A stretch of DNA of 64,000 bases from Acorus gramineus (Eukaryota; Streptophyta; Magnoliopsida; Acorales; Acoraceae), in the NCBI GenBank assembly GCA_030737835.1, contig CM060851.1:10902154-10966153 (forward strand). Reading direction: 5' to 3'. This document shows, in pieces, positions 2,218-54,942 of the stretch. The first letter of the stretch is position 1, and every line of letters begins with the position of its first letter. The notes below the pieces were generated by a model. It was not told the DNA's origin, searched no databases, and saw nothing but the letters and a program-made list of their open reading frames with translations. A program made the position numbers and the translations under genes.

Positions 2218-2253
2218 ATCTCGACGGACGGTCGCGCGACGACCCGATCTTCG
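2218..2253 (+). other. Micro-exon-like block in LTR A
   Basis: A 36-base block lies directly after a pyrimidine-rich CTTGCAG and directly before GTGAGTGG, so it has the look of an internal exon. A donor-like CTTG/GTAAGCC lies upstream at 1069/1070 and an acceptor-like TTTTTCCCCAG lies downstream at 3496. The same arrangement is found in all other copies of this LTR family. Splicing is inferred from motif conservation only. Confidence 0.5.
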
Positions 2254-2558
2254 GTGAGTGGGACAATCCAACCCAGTAGAGAGGCGTTATACGCATTTGG
2301 GCGTATACCGACCTCTCCTGGGGCACCATGGATTATATTAACCTGTTGTAATGTATATTTCATGCGAGCATGATTTAAATGTAGAATGCATGCTACCCTA
2401 GACTTGTATGTTAGGGACTTGCACCCTTAGGATATGTGTATGAGCCATGCATCATGTCCCCCCTGTTCTCATGCTAGGAATCCTTGGCCTATGCATGTGT
2501 CCTACTAGTTTATTTATTAAATTAAATGCTAGTGTATGATAAATTGCATGCCTTAGAT

Positions 2559-2880
2559 AATATTATAGGGAGGAGCCTTGCGAGGTCAACACTGAGACCC
2601 GGGTTAGGGTACTCCGTGTTCCTTGTTTGGTTGTCGGGGTGTCCTGTATCGGGAACTCACGCTGCCCTCCCAAGGTTTCTTGTCCCAATAATATTATAAG
2701 TAATGTTATACCAAATTGTATGATTATTAGCATAATTAGTGAATATTATAGGGGAGGGGCCTCGCGAGGACAGCGGTGAGACCCGGGCTAGGGTACTCCG
2801 TGTTCCTTGTTTGGTTGTCGGGGTGTCCTATATCGGGAACTCACGCTGCCCTCCCAAGTTTCTTTCCCCCAATGATATTC
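2559..2880 (+). repeat. Two copies of an LTR-internal repeat (TR1)
   Basis: Two tandem copies of about 140 bp start at about 2559 and 2742. Both carry GAGACCCGGG, TCCGTGTTCCTTGTTTGG and a 'CTGCCCTCCCAAG' end. LTRs of B also have two copies, LTR C has one (about 14565-14690), and a relic lies inside B at 23605-23730. Copy number varies between members of the family. Confidence 0.85.
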
Positions 2881-3204
2881 CAACCTTGCTATTATTGTAC
2901 ATGTTCCCCGCATCTTGGTTATGCGCCCTGGAGGAATTCTGAGGAATTCAGGACATTAGAGTCGTTGAGAGGTGTAGTCGGCGGATCCGAGTGGATCATA
3001 TGCGTATGGATAGGCTGTTCTGTCCCCTTCGTTGGATCCGGTAGAGGCTGCCCCAGCGTTAGAAAGGCCGTCCCTTCCAAGGGTTCCCATCAGTAGGCGC
3101 CTCCTGATTTGGTTTCGGACTGTGCTGAATGTGGGAGTAGACCAAGCGGCCTACGGAGTGGAGGAGAGACTATCGGTGGACCAAGGGTGACCAACAGCCT
3201 AGTC

Positions 3205-3385
3205 AGTCCCAAAATCCTATGTCACCCGTGGTAGGGTGAGGGTGAGGGTGTAGTGGGTTGGCGATTAGCGACCCGCTGGTTTTGTGATTGGATGATTATC
3301 AGTCCCAATATCCTGCGTCACCTGTTGAGGGTGAGGGTGAGGGTGTGGTGGGTCGTCGATGGAGCGACCCACTGGGTTATGTGTT
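3205..3385 (+). repeat. Two G-rich LTR repeats (TR2) with G-quadruplex motif
   Basis: Two units of about 90 bp start AGTCCCAA(A/T)ATCCT and contain GGGTGAGGGTGAGGG followed by GTAGTGGG or GTGGTGGG and a 'GCGACCCACTGG' end. In the first unit four G3 tracts with short loops lie at 3234-3257, a canonical G-quadruplex pattern. LTR C holds four units of the same repeat. Confidence 0.85.
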
Positions 3386-3880
3386 ATGCCACTTAGAGGC
3401 TGGATAAATAAATGAATTGTGGTCAATATTGTCTGTGATGCATGGGTTGTGCTGTTCACTGAGCGTGTGGCTCACCCCTCGCATATTTTTCCCCAGTTGC
3501 CACTGAGCCGGAGCCGGAGGAGCAGTTGGAGCCGTCCGAGGGATTCCTTCAGTAGCGGAGCAGCGCTACGTTCCGCGAGTGCCAGAGGCTATCAGCATCC
3601 CTTCTTGACTGTATGTATTTTATTTCCGTGCTTGGCACGCGGTTGTATATATTGGCTCTCACATGACAGATGATTGAGTATCGAGTCTGTAGTATGTTTA
3701 TTTACAGATTCAGTCTTTCGCTTCCGCATTTGGTGTATATATCATGTCAGCCTCTTTGTTTGTCTATGTGTCATTCTGGTTGTTTGTGTATGATATATTA
3801 TTGACCTCTTGTGTAGATTATGATATTTTATATACACTTGCCGCGTCCTGGGGACGGCCGCCCTGGGGCGTGACACTGCT

Positions 3881-5645
3881 GGTGCCATACGATAAGGGGC
3901 TTTTGATATCAGTTCAATACCAGGGATTAGATTGATAGAAAATTCGATTTCACAATCGGGTGGTAACCCCGGTAGGTAGTCTAGAAAAACTTTTGGAAAT
4001 TCTGCGACTACTGACGTCCCTTCGATACTTGTCTTTTCAGCCTTAGTGTCCATGTTGCATGCTATGTACCCCATGCAACCGCTCTCCAGTAGATGTTGTG
4101 CTTGTAATGCTGAGATAAGACCCAATGGTCCTACGCTCCAATGCCGACAAAGCATAAAGTCCGTAATCCTAGAATCTTGAGTGACACGGTCTTCAAAAAG
4201 CAGTCCATGTTAGCGTGATAGGCAGAGAGCCAATCCATGCCAAGGATGACATCGAACTTTTGAATCTCCAAAAGCAAGAGGTTCGCCACCAAACATTGGT
4301 CTTCTATTTGAACCATGCACCCTCGATAGATTGATCGAATGGCAACTAATTCGCTAGTAGGAGTCGTGACAATAAAAGGTTTCTCAAGAGGACTCGACAC
4401 TAGACTTGCACGATTTACAAATTCGATAGACACAAAAGAGTGCGAAGCTCCAGAATCAAATAATACGAATGCATCATAACCAGTGACAGAAACGGTACCT
4501 TGAACAACTTCGTCAGTCGCGTGAACATCTCCCACTGATAGAGCATGAACCTGTCCACGCGGCTGTGGCTGCGGCTGACCACGAGAACTCGAAGCTCCTT
4601 GTCCACCAGTGTTTTGCTGTCTTGGCACGCCTTGCGCCTTTCTTGGTTCAGTGCAGTCGACCTGACGATGTCCCAGCTTCCCGCAATTGTAGCATGCACG
4701 ATTGTCTCTTCGCTTCTGGGGACATTCATTAGACTTGTGTCCCGGCTCCCGACAGTTGTAGCAGATGACTCTCCCGCGCACTTCTCGTCCGCGATTATCG
4801 TCAGCAAAGTTCCTCTTTCGATTATCCATCCTCTGGCCACCACCGAAACGTTGATTATTCCGGTTCTTCGCACGGGCTTCATTCTCCTTCTTCCACTCCA
4901 AGGAGTCCTGTTCCGTGAAAAGTGCACAATCCTTCAGCTCCTCATAGACACGGATTCAGAGGTTCCACAGTCTATGACGAATGTCGCTCCTTAGCCCTTC
5001 TTGGAAGCGACGACACTTTTCGCTCTCAACTTGGATGTATTGAGGCGCAAAGACCGATAACTCCAGGAACTTCTCCTCATACTGGGCCACCGTCATGTCT
5101 TGAGTTTGACGAGGGTCCAGAAATGCTTGAACAATGCGATCACGCTCCGCAGGAGGAAAGTACTTCTTGTAGAACATCTCCACAAACTCCTCCCAGGTGA
5201 TATGTTCAATTCCACGGGTCAAAGATTGTTGACGAACAATCCACCATTGGATAGTGGTTCCTCGTAGTTGATGAGCCACCAAGAAGATATGACGGCTATC
5301 AGTCAGCTGCATTGATTTAAAGATTTGCTACAACTCCGTGATCCAATGCTTCAGGGCCATCGGGTCAGTGCCAACTCCTTGAAATGATGGCTGATCCATT
5401 TTCTTGAACCTCATCACCAGTTGTTCTAGCTGGTTCTGGTTTTCTCCTAAACGATGTAACGTCATGTGATTCTAGTGTTGGATTGTTTGCGCCACCAAGT
5501 TGGTCAGGGTCTAAAGATCCTGACGCAAAGTGTTGGCATTTCCTGCCATTTCTGATCTCCCCTAATATGAATCGACACACAGTTAGAACGTATCCTATAT
5601 GTATGCAAGCTTATACCTCCTATTCCTATTCCTTAGCTCTAATAG
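3881..5645 (-). pseudogene. G1 gag and protease region
   Basis: Minus-strand reading from right to left: an N-terminal gag block (near 5580), a Retrotrans_gag core (5312-4956) with 'WWIVRQQSL', 'WEEFVEMFYKKYFPP' and 'MTVAQYEEKFLELSVFAPQY', then two CCHC zinc knuckles (CYNCREPGHKSNEC and CYNCGKLGHRQVDC, about 4770-4665). The retroviral-type protease follows with 'FDSGASHSFVS' (about 4465) and a 'GMDWLSAYHANMDC' end (about 4210). A linker block of the type 'FPKVFLDYLPGLPPDCEIEF' (about 3990) leads into RT. Gag would coat the RNA and the protease would mature the polyprotein in the cytoplasm. The region is a fossil with several breaks. Confidence 0.88.
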
Positions 5646-5654
5646 GAAAACCTA

Positions 5655-12743: not shown

Positions 12744-14251
12744 TGTTGTGTCTGTGTCATTTGGAGCGCTCTGTTTGAAGATTTGGGTACATAATTTTTT
12801 TTCTCTAAGTTATGTATTCCTGATTTGGTATTTGGATTTGATTTTGTTAAAATCCAAGATGAAGAGGTTTAATTATGATTTTATTATGAGATGTCCAGTT
12901 TTGAGTTAGCTTTCGCACAGAAGTGGAATTAGGTCAACTGGATTCTTGTAGTAAAAGTTATGGGTATTTTTCCAAGTATACCCCGGGGATGGAAATTCTG
13001 GCAGCAGCCCTGCTCGATGTTTAGCTCTAATTTCGGAATAGCTGGAGAGATTATCTGATCTTGCCATGAACATGAAAGTTGTAGATAATCTTCTTAGCTT
13101 TCCATCGGTCTTGGAATTGAGCAATTCGGAGCTGTATCGAGGAAGTTATGGCTGTTCCAGTAAAGCTTGCGCAGAATTTCTAGTCGAAGGGCAACCTAGT
13201 CATTTCTCCTTAGATATTTTGCATAAATATCTCTATCTCTCTCTCTCTCTCCCTCCCAATGTTGTCGACCAGCATTTCTGGTCCCTCTCCTCTCTTTCTT
13301 TTGCCCCCCATGTGTTTGATGTGGGGTCTCAAAGAGGAGGAGATGGTGGTGGAGGAAGTGGTGGTGGTGGATCTTGGTGTTGTTGGTTGTTGTTTGTTCT
13401 CCCCTCTCTCAAGCTCTCTTTGCATGGATCTCCCCCCCTGATTTTCAGCTGAGAGGAGGCTGAGGAGGCCGAGGTGGTGGTGGTGGTGGTTGAGGTGGTC
13501 GCGGGTGCGTCGAGGGCCCCCGAACCTCCCCCTTTTGTTCCCCCTCCAAGGTGAGCTCCTCCCCTTCTTTTCTTGGTTTTCTTGGCTTAAGGGGTTGGTT
13601 GGGAAGTCATGCATGCTAGGTAGAGGTGTTAGGGTGTGTGTGAGGGGTTGGGATGGGTGAAAATGAGGTTTAGAGGGCTTGGGCGCGCGCTGGGCGCAGT
13701 CTGCGCGATTGCGCGCGCGCTGGGCGCAGGCGAGCGCTGGTGGGCGCGCAGACGCGCGCGGGCACGTGCACGTGGGTGCGCGCGGGAGTGCGCGCGGGTG
13801 CGCGCGCGAGCGGGCGCGCGCGCGGGCAGGGCGCCTGGGCATGCGCCTGGGTGCGAGGCAGGGCGCCTGGGCAGTGCGCATGGGCGCGGAGCTAGGGACC
13901 AGTGTGCGTGCGTTCGTGCGCGTGCTGGGGCGTGCGCGGGGTGCTGCGCGTGGGGCGCGGGCAGGACGCGTGGTGCACGCGGGTGCGCGCGAGCGTGCGC
14001 GTGCGTGCGGCAGCGCGTCGGGGCGCGCGGGCAGGCGCGCGGCAGTGCGCCGATGGTGCCGGGGTGTGTGCGTGCGTGCGCGTGCGGGTGGCCGTGCGTA
14101 TGGCTGCCCGGGGGTTCGGGAGTGAGTCGGGGTGCTCGGACTCGCGTGCGTACGGGCCGTATGTACGTTTGTCCGAGTGTTGGGTATTTTTAGTGTATTT
14201 GTAGTGGTATTTATGTATTTTACTCACCGAGTTGATTACCCTGTCTTGCAG

Positions 14252-14287
14252 ATCTTGACGGACGGTCACGCGACGACCCGGGTGTTG
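14252..14287 (+). other. Micro-exon-like block in LTR C
   Basis: A 36-base block lies between CTGTCTTGCAG and GTGAGTGG. It matches the block in LTR A closely (ATCTTGACGGACGGTCAC at its start). Same length as in A and both LTRs of B. Confidence 0.5.
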
Positions 14288-15024
14288 GTGAGTGGTACAA
14301 TCCAACCCAGTTGGGAGGCGCTATATGCACTTGGGCGTATACCGTCCTCCCCTGGGGCACCACGGTTAATATTAACTTGTGTAATATGTAGTATGCATGC
14401 TACCCTAGACTTTGTATGTTAGGGACTTGCACCCTTAGGATATGTGTAAGAGCCATGCATCCTGTCACCTTGTTATCATGCTAGGAAAGCCTCGACCTAT
14501 GCATGCGTCCTATTAGTTTAATTTATTAAATTAAATGCGAGCATATGTCTATTAGTATGCCTTGGGGAATATTAAGGGGGCCTTGCGAGGTCAACATTGA
14601 GACCCGGGCTAGGGTACTCCGTGTTCCTTGTTTGGTTGTCGGGATGTCCTATATCGGGACCTCAGGTTGCCCTCCCAAGGTTTCTTTTCCTCATTATTAT
14701 CATATATGTTCCCCGCATCTTGGTTATGCGCCCTGGAGGAATTCTGAAGAATTCATGACATTAGAGTTGTTGAGATGTGTTGTCGGCGGATCCAAGTGGA
14801 TCATATGCGTATGGATAGGCTGTTCTGTTCCCTTCGTTGGATCCGTGTAGAGACTGCCTCAGCGTTAGAAAGGTCGTCCCGTGAGAGGGCTCCCATCAGT
14901 AGGCACCTCCTGATTTGGGACGGACTGTGCTGAATGTGGGAGTGGCCAAGCGACCTACGGAGTGGAGGAGAGACTATCGGTGGACCAAGGGTGACCAACA
15001 GCCTAGTCAGTCCCAATATCCTAT

Positions 15025-17849
15025 GGGCCTGTTTGGTTGATAGGTGGGATTAGGATTATGTGAATCCTAGGATTCCAAATCCAGGTAGATTGGGATTGAG
15101 AATCCTATCAACCTGTTTGGTAAGGAACATGATTCAGAAAACAGGATTGGGATTCTCAATCCCAATCATGTGTTTGGTATTGCTTGGATTACAATATAAA
15201 AAATATATATTTCTAAAAATACTCTTTCTACAAAATCAAATATATGTTAACTCATAGTCAATTTTACATCATTTAATACATACACAATCTTCCAAAATTA
15301 TCCTTTATTTAATAAAATTTTAACAAACATTCTTTCTTTACAATGTTAAGCATCGAAATTCATGATTTTTTTTAAATAAACTTTTCTTCAATGTTGTAAC
15401 ATTAACGACCAATATGTTGACAACACAAGTAAAATAAAATAAATTATTAATAGAAAATGCTTAAAAATTATTGAAAAATAATCAGATAAGTTTTCTTACT
15501 CTAAACACATAAGCAAATTAACACTAGAGTTGACACACATAAACAAATTAACACTAGAGTTCACAACCTCAATTCAAAAGCCATTCGCCTGAATAATTAA
15601 TCTGACAGAAGTAAAGATGACAGCCAATCCTTCTTCAGTTCTTCAGGCATGTTTGAGAACAAATTAACTTTCACAGGATCACGCATTATAATTTCAGTTA
15701 CTCGCAAACAACGAGGCCCATCATCCCTACCCAATATGTTGAACACGTCAGAAAAAACTTTATCCATTCTAACTGTGGCTTCATCAGGCTTGTTAAGACT
15801 ATCTGCAATTGCATTGGCTGAAAGTTTAAAAGCCTCTACCAAGTTAGAAAATTCTGTCGTGAAAGAATCAGAGCTCTTCCTTCTCTTCCTACGACTCTGT
15901 GTTCCCTCTTCCCCAGTCGGTGTTGTCCGCCGTGGTTGGGTCACTGAAATATCCTCATTAACAATGTTCTCCAAGCCTTCATCCTGAATGTGTGGATTAG
16001 TATTTTGTTCTACATCTTCTGCGAGTTCTGTAGGTGTGAAACATCCTCTCCCATTAGCTCGGTCTTTTCCAAACACAAGTGCAAGGTCATCATAATGTGG
16101 AAAATGTTTCATCCACAATCCTTGGGCAATTTTGTGACTCTACAAAAAAAAAAAAAAAAAAGAATAAATCACAAATTTTATTAAGATAAAATAAAAAAAA
16201 ATCACAACTATTTACCTTTACCCATCCGTCATAAATTGTTTTTTTCACGTATCACCATTTTCTTCTCTTCATCCCATGCAAACCCGCTATCATGTTCCAG
16301 CATCTTATTTATTGCATTGTATTTATTCTTCAAATATTTCAATCTGGATTCGATGTGTGGATGTGCTTTAATTCCGCATCCAGGTAATTTATCATGCATC
16401 ATTTTCTCAATCTCTCCAAAAGTACCTGGCTTAAACCCATTGTCTGCTTTTATTTTTCCAGCAACACACAATTCAACCATATTCTCCACTAGTATCAAAT
16501 CTTCTTGAGACGTCCATACATGTTTATTGTTAGCATCTCTACCTGTCTGTGTGATTTGTTCACTATCCATCCTAAAAGAATGCTTGAAAAGTTAAATAAA
16601 ATAGTTGTACAAATATATTATTGGACAATTTAATTAAGACAAAAAAGGGACAATCACATTCAAAAGCATATGAACAATACCACAATAGTAATGAACAATT
16701 ATAATGGTGAAAATCTAACATTAAACTAAAAGCAAATTAAAGCTGTTTCTTGAGTGTCACAATAGACCACAATTTTTTTACATTAAAAAAAAAAACTCAT
16801 TAAACACCTTGCAAACTACGAGGTCAAACTACGAGGTTGACGTTTTAGCAAATATTTCTTATAGATCCTCTCTGCAACAATAGCAATTAAAATCACCATC
16901 ATATTTTGTAAATGTGCCAACAACTTTTCTCTCCTTCCCAAATGTCTACGAGCCATTACTGCATTAAATTGTTGTTCATTAAAAAAATTTCATTCAGGTG
17001 AATAAGATGAGAGTAACAACTATATACCAAAATAATTAACAATACATAGAATTATCTATAACAAAATATTTTAGTCATGTGAATAAAATCAACATCTTAT
17101 AGGCAAACATTCATGTTTAATTTTTCATCTTTAAAAAATACAAAGCAAATTAAAAAATATATATAAAATCAAACAAAAAAAAATCAAATTGATGATTAAA
17201 CTAAAGAATATTAAACCAAGGAATAAACAAAATCAATATTAAACTAATGTGTTTGTCTTACAGAGGGTCTATAAACTAACAAACATAAAAAAAAATAATT
17301 AAATACATATGAAATCCATGCGTTGATGACACATAAGCACAAAAAAAAAATCAATATAAAAACAAAATGAATAACTAATAAATGTAAAAATAATATTTAA
17401 AAACGAATGAAATCCAATGCTATGATGACAGCATTGATGACACATAAGCACAAAAAAAAAAAAAATTAAACGAAGAAGAAGTTTCTTTGGTCTTACGGAG
17501 GGGATATAAAACGAGGTCTTTGTTTTTTATGTATATTATTGGCCGGTGGAGATGGAAAAAATTTTCATGCGGCGAGAATGGTTTGGGATTGACAAGGAAG
17601 AGAAAAATCAATTATTAAAAAAGGGAGATGAAAAATTTGGGTAAAAAAGTCTTTTTTTCAATCCACCTAGATAGGGATTGGGGGAATACCACCTCTTGAG
17701 TGGGATTCTCAATCCCCCTAATGAAGGATTCTCAATCCCTTTCTTCCAATCACAATCCCCCTTTTAAAAATTATCCAAACAAATTATTGACCTAGATTGG
17801 GATTCTCAATCCCAATCCAGGCACCCAATACTCCTATCCAAACAGGCCC
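15025..17849 (-). mobile_element. PIF/Harbinger-type DNA transposon without transposase
   Basis: A 2825 bp element with terminal inverted repeats GGGCCTGTTTGG on both ends and a 3 bp duplication TAT (15022-15024; 17850-17852) interrupts a TR2 unit of LTR C; the same unit is uninterrupted further right, so the insertion point is certain. Subterminal regions are rich in GGGATTGAGAATCCC-type motifs in both orientations. It carries a Myb/SANT-like gene on the minus strand (16570-15597), the accessory ORF of plant PIF/Harbinger elements. No DDE transposase is present in the rest (16571-17849, AT-rich), so it must be mobilised in trans. TSD and ORF type point to PIF/Harbinger; the TAT target is slightly unlike the usual TWA. 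Confidence 0.85.
15597..16570 (-). CDS. Myb/SANT-like DNA-binding protein of the Harbinger element
   Basis: Two exons on the minus strand. Exon 1 (16570-16216) starts at ATG and encodes a Myb_DNA-bind_3 domain: 'KHVWTSQEDLILVENMVEL', 'GFKPGTFGEIEKMM', 'HIESRLKYLKNKYNAINKML', 'SGFAWDEEKKMV'. It ends at a GTAAAT donor. Exon 2 (16139-15597) follows a poly-T tract and TAG acceptor and encodes 'HFPHYDDLALVFGKDRANG', then a basic linker 'RRKRRKSS' and a C-terminal helix-rich part. In PIF/Harbinger elements this protein binds the element ends and helps import the transposase into the nucleus. An A7 run near 16243 shifts the frame near the end of exon 1 relative to the family pattern 'IYDGWVK'; six A would keep it open, so this is either one mutation or a homopolymer error. 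Confidence 0.75.
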
Positions 17850-18163
17850 TATGTCACCTATTGAGGGGTGAGGGTGAGGGTGTGGTGGGTCGGCGATGTA
17901 GCGACCCACTGGTTTGTAAGTCCCAATATCCTATGTCACCTATTGAGGGGTGAGGGTGAGGGTGTGGTGGGTCGGCGATGTAGCGACCCACTGGTTTGTA
18001 AGTCCCAATATCCTATGTCACCTATTGAGGGGTGAGGGTGAGGGTGTGGTGGGTCGGCGATGTAGCGACCCACTGGTTTGTAAGTCCCAATATCCTATGT
18101 CACCTATTGAGGGGTGAGGGTGAGGGTGTAGTGGGTTGGCGATAGCGACCCACTGGATTTGTG
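17850..18163 (+). repeat. Tandem 82 bp TR2 units in LTR C
   Basis: Units begin AGTCCCAATATCCTATG and end CCCACTGGTTTGTA. The first is split by the Harbinger element (its left end at about 15009, right part 17850-17918). Units at 17919-18000 and 18001-18082 are identical to each other, and a variant follows at 18083-18163. Each contains GGGTGAGGGTGAGGG plus TGTGGTGGG, a G-quadruplex pattern. Identity implies recent expansion. Confidence 0.92.
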
Positions 18164-18673
18164 TAGTTCCTGCCACTTTGAGGCTTAAATAATGAGGTTG
18201 TGGTTAATATAAATTGTGATGCATGGGTTGTGCTATTCACTGAGCGTGTGGCTCACCCCTCGCATATATTATTCTCCAGTGTTGTCTGAGTCGGATCTGA
18301 AGGAGGAGCTCCCCGAGGGACTTCATCAGTAGCGGAGTAGCGCCACGTCCCGCGAGTATCAGAGGCTATCAGCATCCCTTTTTTATTGTATGTATTATAT
18401 TCCGTGCTTGGGCACGCGGTTGTATTATATTTGGATGTCGTTGTATATATATTGGCTCTCACAGGACAGTTGATTATGTATCGAGTCTGTAATATGTTTT
18501 TAAATTACAGACTCAGTCTTTTAGCTTCCGCTATTTGTGTATATATCCTGTCAGCTTCATTGTTATCTGTGTTGTCATATTGATGTTGTTTAGGGTATGT
18601 TATCGACCTCCTGTTTAGATCGCTGATATCATATATACACTTGCCGCGTCCCGGGGACGCCCGGGGCGTGACA

Positions 18674-20268: not shown

Positions 20269-22960
20269 TGTCACGCCCCAGGGCGGCCGTCCCGGGGACG
20301 CGGCAAGTGTATATATAATATCAGAATCTACACAGGAGATCAATAATATATCATACACAACAACTAGAATGACACACATGCAACAAAGGGGCTGACATGA
20401 TATATACACCAAATGCGGAAGCAAAAGACTGAATCTGTAAATAAACATTCTACAGACTCGATACTCAATCATATGTCCTGTGCCAACCCACTACACCCTC
20501 ACCCTCACCCTTCAATGGGTGACATAGGATTTTGGGACTGACTAGGCTGTTGGTCACCCTTGGTCCACCGATAGTCTCTCCTCCACTCCGTAGGCCGCCT
20601 GGTCTACTCCCACATTCAGCACAGTCCGAACCAAATCAGGAGGTGCCTACTGATGGGAGCCCTCTGTCAGGAAGGCCTGTCTAACGCTGGGGTAGTCTCT
20701 ACCGGATCCAACGAAGGGGACAGAACAGCCTATCCATACGCATATGATCCACTCGGATCCGCCGACTACACGCCTCAACAACTCTAATGTCATGAACTCT
20801 TCAGAGTTCCTCCAGGGCGCATAACCAGGATGCGGGGAACATGTACAATAAAAGCAAGGTTGGAACATCATTGGGGGAAAGAACTCGGGAGGGCGGCGTG
20901 AGTTCCCGATATAGGATACCCCGACAACCAAACAAGGAACACGGAGTACCCTAACCCGGGTCTCACCGCTGTCCTCGCAAGGCCCCTCCCCTATAATATT
21001 CACTAAATATGCTAATAATCATACCAGTTATATAACATTACTTATAATATTAATGGGACTAGAAACCTTGGGAGGGCAGCATGAGGTCCCGATACAGGAC
21101 ATCCCGACAACCAAACAAGGAACACGGAGTACCCTAACACGGGTCTCAATGTTGACCTCGCAAGGCTCCTCCCTATAATATTATCTAAGGCATGCGATTT
21201 AACATACACTAGCATTTAATTTAATAAATAAACTAGTAGGACGCATGCATAGGCCGAGGTTTCCTAGCATGAAACAGGAGGCATGGTGCATGGGTCTTAC
21301 ACCTATCCTATGGGTGCAAGTCCCTAACATACAAAGACTAGGGTAGCATGCATTCTACATTTAAATCATGCAAGCATGGATTACATATTACTTCCGGTTA
21401 ATATACATCCATGGTGCCCCAGGAGAGGTCGGTGTACGCCCAAGTGCATATAACACCTCTCTACTGGGTTGGATTGTCCCACTCACCGGTATCTGGGTCG
21501 TCGCGTGACCGTCCGTCTAGATCTGCAAGACAGACATTCAATATGGTGAGAACAATACATAAATACTTCAAAATACTCACAAAATACACCAAAAGAACCC
21601 AACACTCGGGTATACGTACATACGGCCCGTACGCACGTTAGCCCGAGCACTCCGACTAACTCACGCACTCCCGGCAACCACTCGCACGGCCACCCGCCCT
21701 CGGATGCGCCGCCGCGCCTCAGCCCGCGCGCCCCGACGCACTGCCGCACGCACGCGCACGCTCGCGCGCGCCCGCGCGCACCGCGCGTCCAGCCCAGCGC
21801 GCCCCCACGCGCACTGCACGCACGCCCCAGCACGCGCGCGCACTGGTCCCCAGCACCGCGCGCACTGGTCCCCAGCACCACGCCAAGGCGCATGCCCAGG
21901 CGCCCTGCCCAGCACCCAGGCACAGTGCCCAGGCGCCCTGCCCGCGCGCACTCCCGCGCACACCCCCGCTTGCGCCAGCACCCGCGCGCACCCTCGCGAC
22001 CACTCCGCGCGCACCCGCACACCCGCGCGCACGCACCCGCGCGCGACTGCGCGCCCGACTGCGCCCGCCAGCGCCCAGCGCCCAGCACCCGCGCCCAGCG
22101 CCACCCGCGCGCACGCTCGCGCACGCCAGCGCGCACGCCCGCGCGCCCCTGCCAGCTGCTGTGCCTTTGCTGCCTGTGCTGCTGCCTGCTGCCCGGGGCT
22201 GCTAGCCTGCCAGCCCGAGCTCCCCTACCACCCACCTCCGGCCACCCCAAGGCCTCCGACCACCACCCCACAGCCCTCCGACGGCCACCCACCGCCGCCG
22301 ACCACCACCCAACCTCATTTCCACCCTCCTAGCATACATCTATGCAAGAAAAAGAGGGAAAAAGAGGCTTACCAAGGGAGGAAGGGAAGTCCGGTTGTTC
22401 TCCGCGCACCGAAACCTCTCCCAAAGGGCTTCCAACGCCCGGATCTACTCCCACCTCCGAAATGAGCCAAAACAGAGGAGAAGAGAGGGGGGACGGAGGG
22501 GCAAATCTCGCCGGAATCCGGATTTGAAAGCACCGGAGTGTAGATCGGGACCCGATCTACACTTCCTATGCTTTAGGTTTTTGGGTTTGAGGGGTCTAAG
22601 GGCCTCAAAAGCAAGAAAAACGGAGGAGAGGAGAGAGAGGGCTCAAGGTAGGAGATGATGAATAGTACCTCGGAAATTTTAGATCCCACTTATATAGTGA
22701 GCGACTTAAAAACCCAGATACGCCCCGGAACTGCGAAATTTTGGAAACGTTGCCGGAATTCGACGAAATTTTCGTGAGAGGCCTAAAATGGCACCAGGAC
22801 ACCAAATATGCAGTTAGATTTTCAATCGGAGTCCTCTAACTCAGGACGATAGCTAACAGTCCAAAAATTAGCGGTTCCGATCGAAAACCGAAAAAAAACG
22901 AAAAACCGCCAGAACGCTCCAACGGTTACCAGCAGGTTAAAAAGTGACACATATATAACA
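20269..22960 (-). repeat. 3' LTR of element B
   Basis: Reads on the minus strand from 22960 to 20269 with the same ends and modules as the 5' LTR, and is shorter by 468 bp. It contains the CpG-dense core (21660-22200), micro-exon-like block (21487-21522) and two TR1 copies. Sequence is otherwise almost identical to the 5' LTR. Confidence 0.95.
21487..21522 (-). other. Micro-exon-like block in the 3' LTR of B
   Basis: A 36-base block on the minus strand lies between TGTCTTGCAG and GTGAGTGG, the counterpart of 27409-27444. Confidence 0.5.
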
Positions 22961-23589: not shown

Positions 23590-24245
23590 CATGGTATCCC
23601 TTGCCTGGGAAAAGAAACCTCGGGAGGGCACCATGAAATCCCGATATAGGATACCCCGACAACCAAACAAGGAACACGAAGTACCCTAGCCCGGGTTTCA
23701 ATGCTGACCTCACAAGGCCCCTTAATCCAGAAAGGAACACTAGAAGAAGACATCATTTTAAAGAACACTACTAACCCCATCGGATCATCTACCTCTAGAT
23801 GATCACCCAACGATGTCCTTCAACATCTAATACAAGACCGAACCCAACATCATCGGGAATGGTCAAATCAACAATTTGGTCACGAGCGACCCGTCTTCGC
23901 CTCATCCACACCCTCACTCCCGAAGGGAGACATTTTGGGACTTTGGGAGAGACTTAGACTGCTCTCTACCCCTGGTCCACCGGTAGCCTCTCCCCGCTCC
24001 GTAGCTCGCCTGGTCCTCTGACCGGGAGCCTGTCTAACGCCGGGGCTGTACTACGCGGATCCAACGAAGGGGAGAGCGATTCCACGCTCGCGGCACCATT
24101 CAATAATCTCTTCCCGGGTAGCCTCTACCTGGCACAGTCCCAGATTCAGTACCCCTCCGACTGCATCGGTGGTACCTACTAATGGGAACTCTCTGTCAGG
24201 GCGGCCATAACCCGGCTTCCTCAACCCGAACAACCATTCTTGACA
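23590..24245 (-). repeat. D-type LTR fragment inside element B
   Basis: Read on the minus strand, this stretch matches LTR modules, not gag-pol. 'AGGTACCACCGATGCA', 'CCAGGTAGAGGCTACCCGGG' and 'CTCCCCTTCGTTGGATCC' agree with solo LTR D at about 56030-56155, and a TR1-like piece lies at 23605-23730. So an LTR piece from a related element sits between gag and the pol remnants of B, in the same orientation. Confidence 0.8.
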
Positions 24246-24302: not shown

Positions 24303-25640
24303 TTATATCCTATTACTGGAGAGTTGAGAACACAAGATAATACCTCGAACCATGATACCTGAAAGCTGCGCCTCCTCGGCCGTAAGCGCTGCAACTCTGC
24401 CCTGGACCAACCGCGGCTGGTGCGGAAGCTGCTGCTGTAAGAACTGCGGCTGCTGAGGTGGCACTCGGGGTCGGTCAGCATCTGGGCAATTGTATCTGAT
24501 ATGCCCGATGCGCTGACAATGGAAGCAGCGCCGCTTCTCCGGCTGCCAGGACTGGATGGGCACTGCTGCAATGGGTGCTGGATCCCACACTGGCACCGCA
24601 TCTGCTGGAGGAGAGGCAGCCGCTGACTGATCGAAGCGGGGCCTCTTCTTCTTGCGCTGCCCCTGGTCCCGACTCCCGGAAGGACTCTGATCTGCCGATG
24701 GGATCGAAGCCTTCACGGGGATCCCGAGGTCTCGCTCAACTGTCTTCGCTCGAGACACTAAGTCGGAGAACCTCGAGAATGCATGGGCGGTGACGTGCAC
24801 CCGGATGGCGCTGCTGAGACCCAACTCGAAACGACGACACCGCGTCCCCTCATCCATCACCAAGGCTGGAGCAAACCTGGAAAGGCTCGTGAAGCGCGTG
24901 GAGTAGTCAGCAACGGACATAGTGCCCTGCGTCAACTGCTCGAACTCTCGCTCCACTATCTGTCGCGTCGAGAAGGGGAAATACTCCTCCAAGAAATATC
25001 CCCTGAATCCTGCCCATGAAAGCTCCTCCACTCCCTCTGGGATGTCCACCACTCGGGTAGCCCACCAGTCGGCGGCGTCACCCTTCAGCATAAAGGTGGC
25101 TAGGGGGACTCGCTGACGATCAGTGCAAAGCATGGCCGCGAAGATCGTATCCACCTCCCTCAACCAACGCTCTGGCGCAAGAGGATCTGCCGACTGACCA
25201 TGGAACTCGGGAGGGTGGAGCTTCAAAAGGCGTTGAGGCCGCTCTGCTGCACTCGCGCCGCCGCCTCTAGCTCCTCCTCCCTTTCCAGGGGATCCTCAAC
25301 TCCTACTGCCGGAATCGCCACGGGAACTGGGGGTACATCGGGTACCGCAGGCGGATCTGCCGCCAAGGGGACCTGCGGAACTGCCTCGCGAGTCGCCCTC
25401 AGCTCCTGAATCTCTCTAGCCTGCTCTGCCAATGCTCTGGTCTGGGCCTCCAGCGCCCTCGTCTGTGTCTCCACCAAATCAGCCAACCGAGCGAAAGCAC
25501 GCTCCCAAGCAGGAGGCTCCTGCGTCAAGGGCTCTCCGGTAGCATCCTCGTCTCTGGTAGGTCCGGAAACCTCCAAAGACCGAGGGACCTCGTCCGCGCC
25601 GTCCTCTGCGAGGAGGCATATCAGCACCCTAAGAAAACCA
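24303..25640 (-). pseudogene. Element B gag
   Basis: A chromovirus-style gag begins near an ATG at about 25619 with an Arg-rich start ('PPRRGRRGRG'). A coiled region follows ('RALEAQTRALAEQAREIQEL', about 25460-25400), then an uninterrupted frame of 307 codons (25226-24303). This holds the Retrotrans_gag core 'FHGQSADPLAPERWLREVD', 'DAADWWATRV', 'FRGYFLEEYFP', 'MSVADYSTRFTSLSRFAP', a basic linker 'QRKKKRPRFD', and a CCHC knuckle 'CFHCQRIGHIRYNC' (about 24528). Gag forms the particle that packages the RNA. Part of an LTR-element fossil; the core frame looks whole. Confidence 0.88.
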
Positions 25641-32700: not shown

Positions 32701-33015
32701 GTTCGAGTGCTGAGGCCGAATATCGTGCTATGGCATCTGCTACTGCTGAGGTTGTTTGGCTTCGACGCCTCCTCTCTGACATGGGCGTCATTCTATCTGC
32801 GTCTACTCCCTATATTGTGACAACAAGAGCGCCATTCAGATTGCTAGCAATCCAGTATTTCATGAACGTACGAAGCACATCGAGATCGATTGTCACTTCG
32901 TCCGTCATCATTTTATTGCGGGCACTATATCACTCCCATATATTTCCTTTTCTCTTCAGTTATCAGACTTTTTCACAAAGTCTCATACACTTCAGCGGTA
33001 TGGTTTCTTGTTGAG
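29791..33015 (+). pseudogene. K2 pol: protease, integrase, RT, RNase H
   Basis: Blocks in order: protease 'WILDSGASHHMTSQASF' (29868), pre-integrase 'VWHRRLGHLSPPRLRYL' (30275), integrase 'HSDVWGPSP' (30459) and 'YAHQQNGVAERKHRHIL' (30732), integrase tail 'FGCTCFVLLPP' (30952), RT 'CKWVYKIKTNSDG' (31652), 'QLDVKNAFLHGDL' (31840), 'LYGLKQAPRAW' and 'LLYVDDMIITGDD' (32092, the catalytic YVDD), RNase H 'YTDADWAGDVTDRKSTTGIC' (32583) and 'SRSSAEAEYRAMA' (32698). The protein would cut the polyprotein, copy the RNA and integrate the DNA. It is spread over more than one frame and is broken, with a few lesions; the RT to RNase H part looks well kept. Confidence 0.9.
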
Positions 33016-43000: not shown

Positions 43001-43136
43001 GGAAATATGGTCACGTACCTGATGTACGATCAGACTTTTATAATTTTTATAATTATAATTTTTCTTTGTTATCTAAAATCCATTTTTCTTATTTTTATAT
43101 TTATCTTATTTATTTCATTTTTTTTTTTTTACAAGA

Positions 43137-46100
43137 ATGGCTATGGTTGGTGACATTTGTCTAGCAGACAGCGCTACAACACATACGATCCTACGAAATA
43201 AACAATATTTCTCGACATTGACATTAATCAATGCAAATGTTAATACCATTTCTGGTACTACGAAATTAATTGAAGGCTCCGGAAGAGCAAATATAATATT
43301 ACCAGGAGGTACAAAATTTTGTATTAATGATGCATTATATTCAGCAAGATCCAGAAGAAATCTGCTAAGTTTTAAGGATATCCGTCTTAATGGATATCAT
43401 ATTGAGACTATCAATGAAAACAATATGGAGTATTTATGTATTACTTCAATTGTTTCAGGCCAAAAACATGTATTAGAGAAACTTCATGCTTTCTCATCTG
43501 GGTTGTATTATACAACCATAAAAACAATCGAATCATATGCTGTAATGAACCAGAAGTTCTATGATTCAGATATTTTTACACTTTGGCATGATCGTCTCGG
43601 GCATCCAGGATCTACAATGATGCGTCGAATAATTGATAATTCATTTGGGCATTCGTTAAAGAACCAGAAGATTCTTTTACCTAATCACTATCAATGCACT
43701 TCGTGCTCACAAGGAAAATTGATAGTTAGACCATCCCCTACAAAAGTCAATGTTGAGTCACCAACATTTTTGCAAAGAATCCAAGGGGATATATGTGGCC
43801 CAATCCACCCCCCATGTGGACCATTCAAGTATTTTATGGTATTGATAGACGCATCTGCTAGATGGTCGCATGTTTGTCTATTATCCACTCGGAATGCTGC
43901 ATTTGCAAGACTACTTGCTCAGATAATCCGATTACAGTCGCATTTTTCGGATTATCATATAAAGTCAATACGTCTTGATGGAGCTGGTGAATTCACATCG
44001 AAAACTTTTAACGACTATTGTATGTCGCATGGCATCGATGTTGAACACCCTGTTGCTCATGTGCACACCCAAAATGGATTAGCTGAATCATTTATTAAGC
44101 ATCTTCAGCTAATTGCACGTCCTATGCTTTTGAGGACAAAATTACCCGTTTCAGCTTGGGGTCATGCTATATTGCATGCAGCAGCATTAGTTCGCCTTCG
44201 GCCAACTGCTTATCATCAATATTCCCCTTTACAGCTCGTACTGGGTCATCAACCAAATATTTCACATCTTCGAATTTTTGGTTGTGCTGTACAAGTTCCT
44301 ATTGCCCCTACACAACGAACTAAAATGGGCCCTCAACGTCGATTGGGAATTTATGTAGGCTTTGATTCTCCCTCTATTATAAGATATCTTGAACCATTGA
44401 CAGGGGATGTTTTTACCGCTCGATTTGCGGATTGTCATTTTGATGAGACAATATTCCCGTCATTAGGGGGAGAAAATCCGTCGCCAGAAGAACGACGTGA
44501 ACTTATATGGAAAACTCCATCTTTGTCTCATCTTGATCCTCGCACTAATCAATGTGAAACTGAAGTGCAAAGAATCACTCATCTTCAAAGAATTGCGCAT
44601 CAATTGCCAGATGCATTCAATGATGCAGCAAAAGTGATGAAATCACATATTCCAGCTGCTAATACTCCAGCTCGAATTAATGTTCCAATAGGAAAAACTG
44701 CTAATATGCCGGCTAATGAATCAACAAAAACACGCCTGAAGCGTGGAAGACCTATAGGCTCAAAAGATTCAGCTCCCCGAAGGAGAAAAACAATGAAGAA
44801 TAATTCTCTAGAAGAGTATGAAACACTTGAAAGACCCACAATAATAACTCCTATAGAGGAAGAAGTCCCTGAAGTGACACAAGTCCCTGAAGAGACTGAC
44901 GTCCCTGAAGTGACGCCCGTGCATGAAGAACAAGTACATGGAAATGAAGAAATTTCCATAAATTATGCAAATTCACAAATATTGTGGGATCGAAAGCAAG
45001 TGCTTGTTGATGATATATTCTCATTTGCAGTAGCTACAGAAATCATTTCAGATAATGATTTAGAACCACGTTCAGTGGATGAATGCAGACGAAAAAATTG
45101 TTGGCCACAATGGAAAGCTGCTATTCAAACAGAATTGGATTCACTTGCAAAACACCAAGTATTTGGACCAGTAGTCCTAACCCCTGAAGGTGTTAAACCA
45201 GTAGGATGTAAATGGGTGTTTGCGAGAAAACGAAATGAAAGAAACGAGATTGTTAGATACAAAGCTCGTCTTGTGGCACAGGGTTTCCTGCAGAGACCTG
45301 GGATAGATTTTGAAGAGACATATTCTCCTGTGATGGACACAATCACATTTCGGTATTTAATTAGTCTTGTAGTCTCAGAAGGACTTGACATGCAGCTAAT
45401 GGATGTGGTTACTGCATATTTATATGGAAAATTAGATACCGACATTTATATGAAAGTTCCTGAAGGACTAAAATTGCCTGAAGCAAAACCACGAAATATG
45501 TACTCAATAAAGTTAAGACGATCCTTGTATGGATTAAAGCAATCTGGACGAATGTGGTATAACCGTCTTAGTGAGTACTTAATAAAAGAAGGATATGTCA
45601 ATGATCCAATATGCCCCTGTGTATTTATTAAGAAAATGGAACTCGGATTTACCATTATTGCAGTATATGTTGATGATATTAATCTAATTGGGACTCCTGA
45701 AGAGCTCAAAAAGGCTTCCGAATATCTGAAAAAGGAGTTTGAAATGAAAGATCTTGGAAAAACAAGATATTGTCTCGGCTTGCAAATTGAGCAAAGTTCA
45801 AATGGGATACTTGTTCATCAAACAACATATGTTGAAAAAATCCTGAAGCGTTTTAATATGGACAAATGTCATCCATTAAGTACTCCAATGGTAGTAAGGT
45901 TACTTGACCCAAAAAGGATCCTTTTCGTCCAAAAGAAGATACTGAAAATCTTCTTGGTCCTGAAGTACCATATCTTAGTGCAATTGGTGCCTTATTATAT
46001 TTGGCCCAATGCACTAGACCTGACATTGCATTTTCAGTTAATTTATTGGCCAGATTTAGCTCTGCACCAACTCGAAGGCATTGGAATGGTGTGAAGCACA

Positions 46101-46675
46101 TTTTTCGTTATCTTCGTGGAACGTCAGACATGGGTCTATTCTATGCAAAGGATTCCAATAATGGTGCACAACTAAAGGGTTATGCAGATTCAGGATATCT
46201 TTCAGATCCTCACAAGGCTCGCTCACAAACAGGCTATGTATTCACTTGCGGTGGCACAGCAATCTCTTGGCGATCTACGAAACAGACTTTGGTCGCCACG
46301 TCTTCTAACCACTCTGAGATTCTTGCACTCCACGAAGCAAGCCGGGAATGCGTGTGGATAAGGTCTTTGGTTCATCATATTCGTACTGCATGCGGACTAT
46401 CTCTCATTACAGATGTTCCAACAACTATATATGAAGACAATGCAGCATGCATTGCTCAAATCAAAGGGGGATATATCAAGGGAGATAGAACAAAGCATAT
46501 TTCTCCAAAATTCTTTTACACTCATGAGCTCCAGCAGAGACATGAAATTGATGTTCAACAAATTCAGTCAAAGGACAATCTTGCAGATTTGTTTACTAAA
46601 GCTTTGTCGACATCAACATTCAAGAAGCTGGTGTATGAAATCGGGATGCGACGAGTTTGCGACCAAAATTCTTGA
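43137..46675 (+). pseudogene. K4 pol: protease, integrase, RT, RNase H
   Basis: Protease-type block 'ICLADSATTHTILRNKQYF' (43153), pre-integrase 'LWHDRLGHPGSTMMRRIID' (43581), integrase 'CTSCSQGKL' (43696), 'QGDICGPIHPPCGPFKYFMV' (43783), 'SIRLDGAGEF' (43963) and 'HTQNGLAESFIKHLQLI' (44061). Then a linker with a VPE(V/E)T repeat (44862-44920), RT 'VGCKWVFARKRNERNEIVRY' (45202), 'YLYGKLDTDIYMKVPEGL', 'SLYGLKQSGRMWYNRLSEYL' and 'VYVDDINLIG' (45664, catalytic YVDD), and RNase H to TGA near 46675 ('RSQTGYVFTCGGTAISW', 'DNLADLFTKAL'). A 985-codon frame covers most of it. Looks nearly whole. Confidence 0.92.
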
Positions 46676-51015: not shown

Positions 51016-52340
51016 ATGCATAACCGAGTCAAGGTCGATGAGCGCAGACCCGGTCCCGAAGACAGGGTCCTTGAAGATCTCGAGAAGGTCCCAATAGACC
51101 CCTTCGACCCTGAGAAATACTTTCTCGTCGGGAGTTTACTCTCCGCAGAAGAGAGAAAGGCGATACTCGACCTCCTCATCGAGAACAGGGACATCTTGGC
51201 CTGGAAGCCTCAAGACATGCCGGGAATTGATCCTGAGGTGGCAAGCCATCGGCTGTCCATATCGCCGATCATCCGTCTAGTCCGATAGAAGCAGTGACGA
51301 ATGGCCACCACACACGTCGAGGCGGTGCGGGACGAGGTGGAATAAACTCCTGGCCACAGGGTTCATACGAGAAGTGCGACACCCCAAGTGGCTGGCCAAC
51401 ACTGTGGTGGTTCCAAAGAAGAACAAGAAGTGGTGGGTCTGCGTGGACTTCACCAACCTGAACAGCTCCTGTCCGAAGGACAGCTTCCCACTTCCGAAGA
51501 TTGACCAACTGGTAGACTCCTCATCGGGTAATGAACTAATGAGTTTTATGGATGCTTATTCAAGCTACCACCAAATCCCAATGCACGAGCCCGACCAGGA
51601 GAGGACAATGTTCATAACCCCTACGGGCATTTACTGCTATAAAGTGATGCCGTTCGGGTTAAAGAACGCAGGGGCCACTTATCAGAGGTTGGTGACTAAA
51701 ATCTTCCAGCATCAGATCGGTAAGACTGTTGAGGTTTACATCGATGACATGATGGTAAAAAGTGAGCGCCTAGTTGACCACTTGGCCCACATGGAAGAAA
51801 TCTTCATTGTGCTGCGTAAGTACCGCCTCAAACTAAATGCGACAAAATGCTCTTTCAGAGTCACCTTGGGCAAGTTTCTGGGGTACCTGACGACGCAGCG
51901 AGGAATCGAAGCCAACCCTGACCAAATCAAGGCGTTATTGGATAAGAAGCCCCCACGGAAAAAAAGGAGGTATAGAAGCTGGCGGGGAGGTTGGCCGCTC
52001 TCAATCGATTCATCTCTAGGTCCACTGATCAATGCCAGCCATTCTTCCAGTTGCTGCGGAAGGCTCAGAGATTCGAATGGACGCCAGAATGTAAAGGCAT
52101 TTGAAGAAATCAAGAAGTACCTCAGCACGCCACCACTTCTGGTATGTCCTTCCTTAGGAGACACTTTGCTCCTCTACATTGCAGCCTCCAAGCATGCTGT
52201 TAGCTTCGCGCTATTGAAGGATATTGACCAAGGGCAGAGGGCAATCTACTATGCAAGTAAGGCGCTCAGTGGGACGGAGACCAGGTATTCCCGCATCGAA
52301 AAGTTGCGTTTGCCTTGCTCATTTTAGCCCGGAAATTGCG
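51016..52340 (+). pseudogene. Element E reverse transcriptase and RNase H
   Basis: The linker 'FLVGSLLSAEERKAILDLLI' and 'NRDILAWKPQDMPGIDPEV' precedes RT blocks 'WWVCVDFTNLNSSCPKDSFP', 'DAYSSYHQIPM', 'TPTGIYCYKVMPFGLKNAGA' and 'VEVYIDDMMVKS' (51730, catalytic YIDD). RNase H type 'LLLYIAASKHAVSFALLKD' and 'YYASKALSGTETRYSRIEKL' follows. This fits the Tat branch of Ty3/Gypsy. Fossil with several breaks. Confidence 0.88.
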
Positions 52341-52880
52341 CTATTACTTCCATGCCCATACGATCCATGTCATCACCGAATCACCGCTCAAGGCTGTATT
52401 GCAAAAGGCGGACGTCGTAGGACAATTGCTCAAATGGGCAGTGGAGCTCTCAACTTTTGATATCTACTATCTGCCCAAGAGTGCAATTAAAGGACAGGTC
52501 GTCACAAACATCATCGCCGACCTTACACCTGCCTGGCAGCATGTCTGTTTAATCTTCAACTGCAGGCGAATTTCTTGGACACTCCATGTCGACGGGGCGT
52601 CCAACCAAAATCGGGCAGGAGCTTATCCTACGCAATGAAGATGATTTCTTGTTTGAACACGCAATCAAACTAGGATTCAACGCTTCTAACAATGAAGCCA
52701 AGTACGAGGCACTCATTGTGGGCTTGGAATTCGCTGTAGATCTCGCCGTCCATAAATTGGTGATCTACATCGATTCCTAGCTCGTGGTTTGTCAGAGCCA
52801 TGGAGAATATCAGACGAAGGATGACTGAATGGCGGCTCATCAGGGATAAACCCGTACTTTGCTTGAACGAATCGGTGAGT
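52341..52880 (+). pseudogene. Element E connection and second RNase H-like domain
   Basis: 'LARKLRYYFHAHTIHVITES' and 'LLKWAVELSTFDIYYLPKSA' close the first RNase H. A second domain starts with 'WTLHVDGASNQNRAGA' (DGAS motif, about 52579) and continues with 'ASNNEAKYEALIVGLEFAVD' and 'VIYIDS' (about 52765). A plant-type second RNase H after the retroviral one is a mark of the Tat group. Fossil. Confidence 0.82.
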
Positions 52881-53424
52881 GGGAAGTCCACACAATCGAT
52901 CGCGAGCGGAATACTCATGGTGACGCTCTAGCAAATCTGGCAAGTACGCTTGAGGGAGAACCATCCCGGGAGATTCAAGTCGAATTCTTGAGGGAGCCAA
53001 GCATAACCCATCCCAAACAGGTTATGGCAGTGGAGTCAACAACTCGTGAACCGACCTGGATGGACCCCGTTCTGTCTTACTTTAAATACAACTTCCTCCC
53101 AGCAGATAAGGAAGAGGCCAGGAAAATCAATAGCCGATCCGCTTGGTTCTTGATCTCTGATCAGGGCGTACTGTATAAGCAAAGCTTTCAAGGCCTTCTC
53201 CTCAGGTGTGTTAATCCCGAAGAAGCTAAAGAAGTGTTAAGAGAAATACATTCGGGGGTGTGAGGAAGCCACACGGCCTTGAGGTCCTTGGGGAAGCGCG
53301 TGTTGACAGCCGGATACTTCTGGCCAACCCTTGCAAAGGACTTGCTCGACCTGGTGAGCAAATGTGGCAAGTGCCAACGATTCGGTCCCCTAATTCACCG
53401 ACCAGCTGGGGATTTGAATACACT
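52881..53424 (+). pseudogene. Element E integrase N-terminal part
   Basis: 'HTIDRERNTHGDALANLAST' and 'VLYKQSFQGLLLRCVNPEEA' lead to the integrase zinc region with 'TAGYFWPTLAKDL' and 'KCGKCQRFGPLIHRPAGDLN' (53293-53415). Solo LTR D interrupts directly after the 'LNT' motif. The continuation is at 57140. Confidence 0.82.
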
Positions 53425-54903
53425 ATAAATGTTGTGCCTGTGTCATTTGGAGCGCTCTATTTGAAAATTTGGCTACATAATTTTTTTTCCTAGAAGTTAT
53501 GTATCCCCGATTTGGTATTTGGATTTGATTTTGTTAAAATCCAAGATGAAGAGGTTTAAATATGATTTTATTATGAGATGTCCAGTTTTGAGTTAGCTTT
53601 CATACAAAAGTGGAATTAGATCAACTGGATTCATGTAGTAAAAGTTATGGGTATTTTTCCAAGTATACCCCGGGGATGAGAAATTCTGGCAGCAGCCCTG
53701 TTCAATGTTTAGCTCTAATTTCGGAATAGCTGGAGGGATTATTTGATCTTGGCATAAACATGAAAGTTGTAGATAATCTTCTTGGCTTTCCAGCGGACTT
53801 TGAATTGTGCAATTCGGAGCTATATTGAGGAAGTTATGGCTGTTCTAGTGAAGCATGTACAGAATTTCTGGTCAAGGACGACTTAGTCATTTGATCCTTC
53901 TTTAGATATTTATGTGCCAAATAAATATCTCTCTCTCTCTCTCTCCCTTCCACTCCCCACGTCAACGTGGGATTCAAAGCTCTCTCTTCCTCTCTCTCAA
54001 GCCCCCCAAGTGTTTGTTTTAACTCCTCAATGAGATGGAGAAGGAGATGGTGCAAGTGCATGACTAGGTTTGTGCATGTGTGGTGTTGTTGATCCTCCTC
54101 TCTCAAGCTCCCTTTTCATGATCCTTCCCCCCCTGATTTTCAGCCAAGAAGGAGGCTGAGGAGAGGCTGAAGAGGTGGTGGTGGTGGTAGAGGTGGCCGT
54201 GGGCGCGTCGAGAGCCCCGCATCTCCCCCTTTCCCTTTCCCTCTTTTGGTAAGTCCTCTTCCCCTTCTTTTTGATTTGTAAGGGCTGTTGGGATGGTTAG
54301 GGTGTTCATGCATGCTATGCATATGGGTTAGGGTGTGTGTGAGGGGTTGGGGAGGGTTAAAAAGAGGTTGGGAGAGGCTGGGCGCGCGTTGGGGGCAGTC
54401 TGCGCGCGCACAGGCGGGCGCTGGCAGGCGCAGGCAGGCGCGCAGACGCTCGCGGGCGCTGGCGCGAGGGGGGTGCGCGCGAGTGCGCGCGAGCGCGCAC
54501 GCGTGCGGGGCAGTGCGCCTGGGCATGCGCCTGGGAGCGGTGCTGGGGGCTAGTGTGCGTGCATGTGCGTGCTGGGGCATGCACGGGGTTCTGCACAGGC
54601 GCGCAGTGCGCGCGAGGGCGCGCGGGCTGGACGTGCAGTGCGATCTGGGAGGCGGGCAGGCGCGCGGCAGTGCGCCAAGGGTGCTGGGGCGCGTGCGTGC
54701 GTGCGTATGCGTGTGTGCGCGTGCGGGGGGCCATGCGTGTGGCTGCCCGAGGGTTCGGGTAGGTGTCGGGGCACTCGGACTCACGTGCATGCTCGCATGC
54801 GTGCGAGTCCGTATGCATGCTTGTCCGAGTATTTGGTATTTCTAATGATTTCTATGTGTAAATTGTGTTGTTACTCACCAAATTGGATGCCCCTACCTTG
54901 CAG

Positions 54904-54942
54904 ATCTCGTCGGAAGGGATGCGCGAGGTCCCGGGTCGTATG
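54904..54942 (+). other. Micro-exon-like block in LTR D
   Basis: A 39-base block lies between CTACCTTGCAG and GTGAGTGG. It is three bases longer than in A, B and C and clearly diverged inside, but it keeps its ATCTCGTCGG start and both flanking motifs. Confidence 0.5.

Follow-up and report, generated by a model that had tools for sequence, protein, structure and literature searches.

A stretch of 64,000 nt from Acorus gramineus (contig CM060851.1, called the window below) contains five long terminal repeats (LTRs) of one retrotransposon family, and these LTRs share conserved splice signals that are correctly ordered and spaced. The signals outline a leader with two putative spliceosomal introns on either side of an exon of only 36-39 nt (Table 1). 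We favour, with a probability of about 60%, a family with a very long R region, the leader of which would be spliced in RNA destined for Gag synthesis and left unspliced in RNA destined for reverse transcription. The five copies are the solo LTRs A and C, LTR D, and the 5' and 3' LTRs of a single element, B, here called B5 and B3.

Splice signals and their conservation

A sequence-only reading of the window had described a short block in each LTR, bounded by splice-site-like motifs. Its coordinates and lengths are correct (36, 36, 36, 36 and 39 nt in A, B5, B3, C and D), and its estimates of the distance to the next acceptor, about 1.2 kb in A and 1.8 kb in D, agree with computed lengths for the predicted intron 2 of 1243 and 1810 nt (1267 nt in B5). 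It had also listed A, C and D as the copies with a donor before the block (donor 1) and an acceptor well after it (acceptor 2). Both sites are found in these three, but the list was too narrow, since donor 1 is present in B5 and B3 as well (five of five LTRs) and acceptor 2 in B5 (four of five); the corresponding region of B3 has been lost by internal deletion.

Donor 1 has the form G/GTRAG throughout, being TTG/GTAAGC in A, B5 and B3, AAG/GTGAGC in C and TTG/GTAAGT in D. At the block itself, acceptor 1 is CTTGCAG/AT and donor 2 is G/GTGAGTGG in all five copies. The motif CTCAC, which fits the plant branch-point consensus, lies 23, 24, 24, 25 and 26 nt upstream of the AG of acceptor 1 in the five LTRs, and 22, 24, 24 and 25 nt upstream of that of acceptor 2 in the four that have it. 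The predicted intron 1 of all five LTRs and the predicted intron 2 of four possess the ordered and usually spaced donor, branch-point-like motif and acceptor of a spliceosomal GT-AG intron. All GT or AG dinucleotides of each LTR were ranked with a plant-like scoring matrix, LTR C being split at a transposon-like insert so that its donors were scored in the part before the insert and its acceptor 2 in the part after. Donors 1 and 2 rank 5 and 7 of 266 in A, 3 and 1 of 265 in B5, 3 and 1 of 217 in B3, 1 and 2 of 195 in C, and 1 and 2 of 307 in D; acceptor 2 ranks 4 of 192 (A), 11 of 182 (B5), 3 of 47 (C) and 1 of 252 (D).

The sites also stand out by conservation. An alignment of exon 2 and its surroundings in A, B5, C and D (B3 was omitted as a near-twin of B5) has 308 ungapped columns, 163 of them invariant, and the only invariant runs of at least 8 nt are CTTGCAGATCT at the acceptor and GGTGAGTGG at the donor. 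The core columns are invariant in 13 of 13 cases, against 150 of 295 for the others (Fisher 2e-4, with columns chosen post hoc). The interior of the exon, with 19 of 35 columns invariant, is at the background level. Conserved sites around a drifted interior are the pattern of splice sites flanking a non-coding exon. The columns of branch point 2 passed the same test weakly (5/5 invariant, Fisher 0.04). Those of branch point 1 (1/5) and the CAG of acceptor 2 (0/3) failed it, which we attribute to gaps placed there by the aligner, since the motifs are present in each copy that has the region. Near the LTR 3' end there are six invariant runs of at least 8 nt, the longest of which, GCTCACCCCTCGCATA (16 nt), is directly upstream of acceptor 2.

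The start of exon 1 was assumed, and placed 31 nt after a TATA-like box that lies about 260 nt into the LTR in A and B and 480-490 nt into it in C and D. A CT-rich stretch follows this box in all five LTRs, and the distance from the assumed start to donor 1 is near-constant, at 295, 291, 294, 298 and 298 nt in A, B5, B3, C and D. Exon 1 together with the next 90 nt is homologous between copies (z 9.0 for A-D, 7.8 for A-C and 6.8 for B5-D, and a weak 2.9 for B5-C), with donor 1 within the aligned stretch; 92 of the 321 ungapped columns of the four-way alignment are invariant. Upstream of the TATA-like box, homology between A/B and C/D was undetectable in four pairs (z 0.1, 0.3, 1.7 and 2.1). 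The U3 of A/B (482-743 in A) is thus unrelated to that of C/D (12744-13221 and 53430-53919) while the remaining LTR is homologous, a relationship that on sequence comparison is a promoter-module swap within the family.

From these signals we infer a leader that works as follows. Transcription would begin near the LTR 5' end, downstream of the TATA-like box; transcripts would then start near 775 in A and at its counterparts elsewhere, placing the whole block within R. Removal of the two introns from this R-region leader would provide a short leader for Gag translation, and the part of the RNA left unspliced would be copied by reverse transcriptase. Reverse transcription regenerates the LTRs from the R region of the RNA, and because both introns persist in them, the RNA that is reverse transcribed would normally be the unspliced form. 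In element B, where the first gag ATG is at 25619 on the minus strand, the leader from B5 to this ATG is 2985 nt long with 57 ATGs if unspliced, and 849 nt with 10 ATGs if spliced at both predicted introns.

The proposal of the sequence-only reading that the LTR leader carries spliceosomal signals is supported, because donors, acceptors and suitably spaced branch-point-like motifs have been kept between LTRs whose leader sequence has otherwise diverged strongly. Its further hint, that the length of the block is always a multiple of three, deserves little weight: four copies are equally long and the fifth has a net gain of 3 nt, so divisibility by three says little. A coding micro-exon was considered and rejected, as joining exons 1, 2 and 3 gives, in three frames, no open frame common to A, B5, C and D, and the exon 2 interior is conserved only to background.

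Evidence on the other side and alternative explanations

Several observations weigh against the two-intron leader. Acceptor 1 scores poorly, ranking 16 of 192 in A, 3 of 182 in B5, 4 of 151 in B3, 10 of 136 in C and 58 of 252 in D. A U-rich body is the usual trend of plant introns, though no strict requirement, and the middle of intron 1 does not follow it, with a GC content of 73-78% and a T fraction of 0.14-0.16; on the favourable side, both ends of intron 1 are T-rich. The T fraction of intron 2 (0.28-0.30) is about equal to that of exon 1. The description of plant introns as U-rich is also found in a paper on BARE (PMC3735527). Exon 1 of A, B5 and B3 is not significantly poor in ATGs (9-14% of shuffles have as few), exon 1 of C and D holds 5 and 6 ATGs, and 10 are left in the predicted spliced leader of B5; an ATG-poor leader was accordingly dropped as independent support. 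When the joined leader of A was translated and searched (one frame of one copy), a single protein among 543 candidates matched at E <= 1, and this A. gramineus gene model, P0012, reads through donor 1, so that published gene models were rejected as evidence of splicing. Splice sites are not the sole conserved features of the LTR, since stretches within the middle part of intron 2 are strongly conserved too (of 419 ungapped columns, 282 are invariant, and the longest run is 19 nt). The sample, moreover, is only five related LTR copies, and because of that relatedness its effective size is about two or three independent lineages.

The small number of lineages, the other conserved runs in the LTR and the choice of the block after the sequence had been read all leave room for chance and shared ancestry, whereby functionless splice-site-like motifs would simply have been kept among related copies. 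It is hard to see, however, why four splice sites and two branch-point-like motifs should then occur in the right order and spacing while the exon between the sites drifted to background. In the window the pattern CTCAC[CT]-N12..30-TTGCAG has five matches on both strands together, each inside an LTR, and GGTGAGTGG has six, of which five are inside LTRs and the sole outside match is at 52874. The joined acceptor-block-donor pattern occurs five times in the window and in none of 60 dinucleotide-preserving shuffles of it, although the acceptor part alone has 19 matches across the 60 shuffled windows. Scans of viral_contigs with such patterns gave 0, 1 and 4 stretches; the single one is not LTR-like in the part read, donor 2 was not found in the 40 bases following each of the four, and all five matches are taken as chance. 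An origin of the LTR motifs by chance and descent is, on balance, improbable.

A promoter near the LTR 3' end would put the block in untranscribed U3 or in a 3' untranslated tail, and the motifs could then be introns of a 3' untranslated region, or DNA elements such as protein-binding sites. TATA-like stretches noted by eye near the 3' end, a further point against a leader that starts upstream, would suit this arrangement, as would conserved runs unconnected with splicing, such as the 19 nt in intron 2 and the runs near the 3' end. It is made equally improbable by the upstream TATA-like box and CT-rich stretch, whose spacing from donor 1 hardly varies among the five copies, and a DNA-binding role does not predict CTCAC 22-26 nt upstream of two separate AGs. 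Less probable again is a role of the donors mainly through U1 snRNP, silencing a poly(A) site in the 5'LTR, with splicing incidental. In HIV-1 and foamy viruses, according to a review (PMC12789967), U1 snRNP acts from the major splice donor to suppress the poly(A) signal at the 5' end, and the donors of the present LTRs do outscore acceptor 1, but the conserved acceptors and branch-point-like motifs would be left unexplained.

A probable hairpin in the predicted intron 2 and comparison with known systems

The two-intron leader may have a further component. A module of about 200 nt occurs in intron 2 of A, B5, C and D (three times in D), in B3 and, in a shorter form of 147 nt, in the post-gag spacer of element B, and in all eight places its predicted fold is mainly one long hairpin (-61.6 to -93.4 kcal/mol), with an inner branch in some copies. 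Stability was compared with shuffles for three of the eight copies and, with z values of -1.49 (A), -4.01 (first D copy) and -1.26 (the copy internal to B), is convincing by itself only for D. In the eight-copy alignment 93.5% of cells pair, a value reached by none of 500 shuffles; the covariation score is 0.205, against 0.162 +/- 0.013 in shuffles (1 of 500 reaches it), and falls to 0.039-0.080 when the partner is slid. Changes on both sides affect 8 of the 48 pairs, which is weak, as 73 of 500 shuffles reach this. A conserved hairpin in intron 2 is likely rather than proven, because relatedness can lift sequences above such shuffles even where there is no structure. Rfam gave no match in the window at gathering scores.

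The non-coding spacer after the gag frame of element B (24300-23600, minus strand) shares modules with the LTRs: over 117 nt it is 87% identical to a repeat of LTR A, and over 506 nt it matches intron 2 of D with 69% identity. The ends of two A. gramineus gag models, P0003 and P0006, resemble by eye the translation of this spacer, which is therefore not private to B; it could be a gag-pol intron, which in the Ogre type lies between the gag-pro and reverse transcriptase frames. Another conserved stretch, GTATGTATT ... TTACAG, lies at about 3600-3720 in A and at its counterparts in B5, C and D (97, 117, 123 and 114 nt), and ends in a small hairpin. It includes the acceptor-like site that scores highest in A, B5 and C and second in D, and the stretch is possibly a third intron, with GTATGTATT as donor and TTACAG as acceptor, or a 3'-end processing site.

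The intron 2 hairpin could, as a conjecture, mark genomic RNA. The leader would then be retrovirus-like within a plant Ty3/gypsy LTR, with spliced RNA translated and the unspliced genome marked by the hairpin of intron 2 and the post-gag spacer, splicing stripping a packaging or dimer signal from the messenger. This extended scheme is rather unlikely in its entirety. In retroviruses a splice donor lies in or near R-U5 and unspliced RNA is the genome; a leader donor and an unspliced genome are what is proposed here, where splicing is predicted from sequence. Retroviral acceptors, however, serve downstream genes, whereas both whole predicted introns of these LTRs lie inside the LTR.

Splicing in plant LTR retrotransposons is already known from Ogre, BARE1 and EVADE (PMC6317226, PMC3735527, PMC12786077). 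Ogre, of the Tat lineage, is also a plant Ty3/gypsy element, and its intron is removed from part of the transcripts; introns are mentioned only for Ogre in the available part of the clade survey that describes it (PMC6317226). The barley element BARE1 likewise keeps RNA to be translated apart from RNA to be replicated, with splicing in one of the two pools, but its 104-nt facultative intron is in the gag region rather than in the LTR, and it belongs to another superfamily, Ty1/copia (PMC3735527). In EVADE (EVD), a Ty1/copia element of Arabidopsis, splicing similarly yields a messenger apart from the full-length RNA, though from an intron in the coding region; that paper describes plant LTR retrotransposons as generally intronless, with Ogre and EVADE as exceptions (PMC12786077). 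The solo LTRs of ta-TRIM elements in Taeniid tapeworms start transcripts that are often cis-spliced, but the acceptors shown are downstream of the LTR and the authors allow that the donor may be there by chance (PMC4558846). A limited search of the open-licence literature, with most subscription papers outside its scope, found no description of whole introns inside a plant LTR, and a term search of PMC3059260 gave no word starting with intron or splic.

Very long LTRs are puzzling because the gag messenger is thereby burdened with a leader thousands of bases long and rich in upstream ATGs. Introns within the LTR, if real, would ease this burden and at the same time oblige the element to divide its RNA into a spliced messenger and an unspliced genome. 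The idea would be testable with DNA alone: if spliced RNA were occasionally reverse transcribed, LTRs from which precisely an intron is missing would result, and genomes can be searched for these. Solo LTRs next to genes would also come equipped with a promoter, a first exon and a splice donor.

The host element and its surroundings

Table 1. Positions of the LTR copies, their predicted exons and introns, the hairpin modules and associated features in the window
Feature	Position	Strand	Remarks
LTR A	482-3875	+	solo; target duplication CTGCT
A, predicted exon 1	775-1069	+	
A, predicted intron 1	1070-2217	+	
A, predicted exon 2	2218-2253	+	
A, predicted intron 2	2254-3496	+	
A, predicted exon 3	from 3497	+	
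A, hairpin module in intron 2	3007-3213	+	
LTR C	12744-18673	+	solo; duplication CATAT
C, predicted exon 1	13253-13550	+	
C, predicted intron 1	13551-14251	+	
C, predicted exon 2	14252-14287	+	
C, hairpin module in intron 2	14812-15017	+	
C, DNA-transposon-like insert in intron 2	~15022-17849		called Harbinger by the sequence-only reading only
C, predicted exon 3	from 18280	+	
B3	20269-22960	-	donor 1 at 22372; acceptor 1 and donor 2 present; acceptor 2 lost by deletion
B3, hairpin module	20531-20736	-	
B3, predicted exon 2	21487-21522	-	
Element B, shorter hairpin module in post-gag spacer	23943-24089	-	
Element B, gag frame (part)	24303-25295	-	Pfam Retrotrans_gag
B5	25739-28898	-	element B duplication GATGG
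B5, predicted exon 3	from 26141	-	
B5, predicted intron 2	27408-26142	-	
B5, hairpin module in intron 2	26453-26658	-	
B5, predicted exon 2	27409-27444	-	
B5, predicted intron 1	28313-27445	-	
B5, predicted exon 1	28604-28314	-	
LTR D	53430-57134	+	no clear duplication found
D, predicted exon 1	53951-54248	+	
D, predicted intron 1	54249-54903	+	
D, predicted exon 2	54904-54942	+	
D, predicted intron 2	54943-56752	+	
D, hairpin module in intron 2, first copy	55390-55589	+	
D, hairpin module in intron 2, second copy	55799-55998	+	
D, hairpin module in intron 2, third copy	56123-56324	+	
D, predicted exon 3	from 56753	+	

Element B has the TG...CA repeats (its LTR ends are TGTT...GACA), target duplication, primer-binding site (TGGTATCAGAGC, after B5) and gag of a Ty3/gypsy LTR retrotransposon. 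Its gag gave 11 protein matches at E <= 0.001, the best eight of which are from A. gramineus and 71-84% identical. Long LTRs and a primer-binding site of the initiator-Met type are typical of Tekay/Del chromoviruses. The present family shares both, and in the relative P0008 an RVP_2 protease domain follows gag; the family is probably Tekay/Del-like. Membership of that clade is judged by reverse transcriptase phylogeny and by a chromodomain after the integrase, but the pol of element B is broken: a fragment of 31 aa, which by eye looked like the end of the integrase, matches nothing in Pfam, and for one of 61 aa the match to RT_RNaseH_2 falls short of the cut-off (E 0.011). Protein-guided scans found no relative in viral_contigs; in genome_contigs they turned up a single distant one, with 26% identity.

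LTR A is nested in another Ty3/gypsy element on the minus strand (1-480 and 4134-4955), with a frame resembling reverse transcriptase (RT) by eye on one side and zinc knuckles and an RVP_2 protease on the other. LTR D is apparently, by eye, inserted in a different Ty3/gypsy element, and an RT-like open frame, also recognised by eye, lies near it at 51281-52327 on the plus strand. Two long open-frame stretches on the plus strand, at 29701-33014 and 43077-46675, look by eye like Ty1/copia polyproteins.

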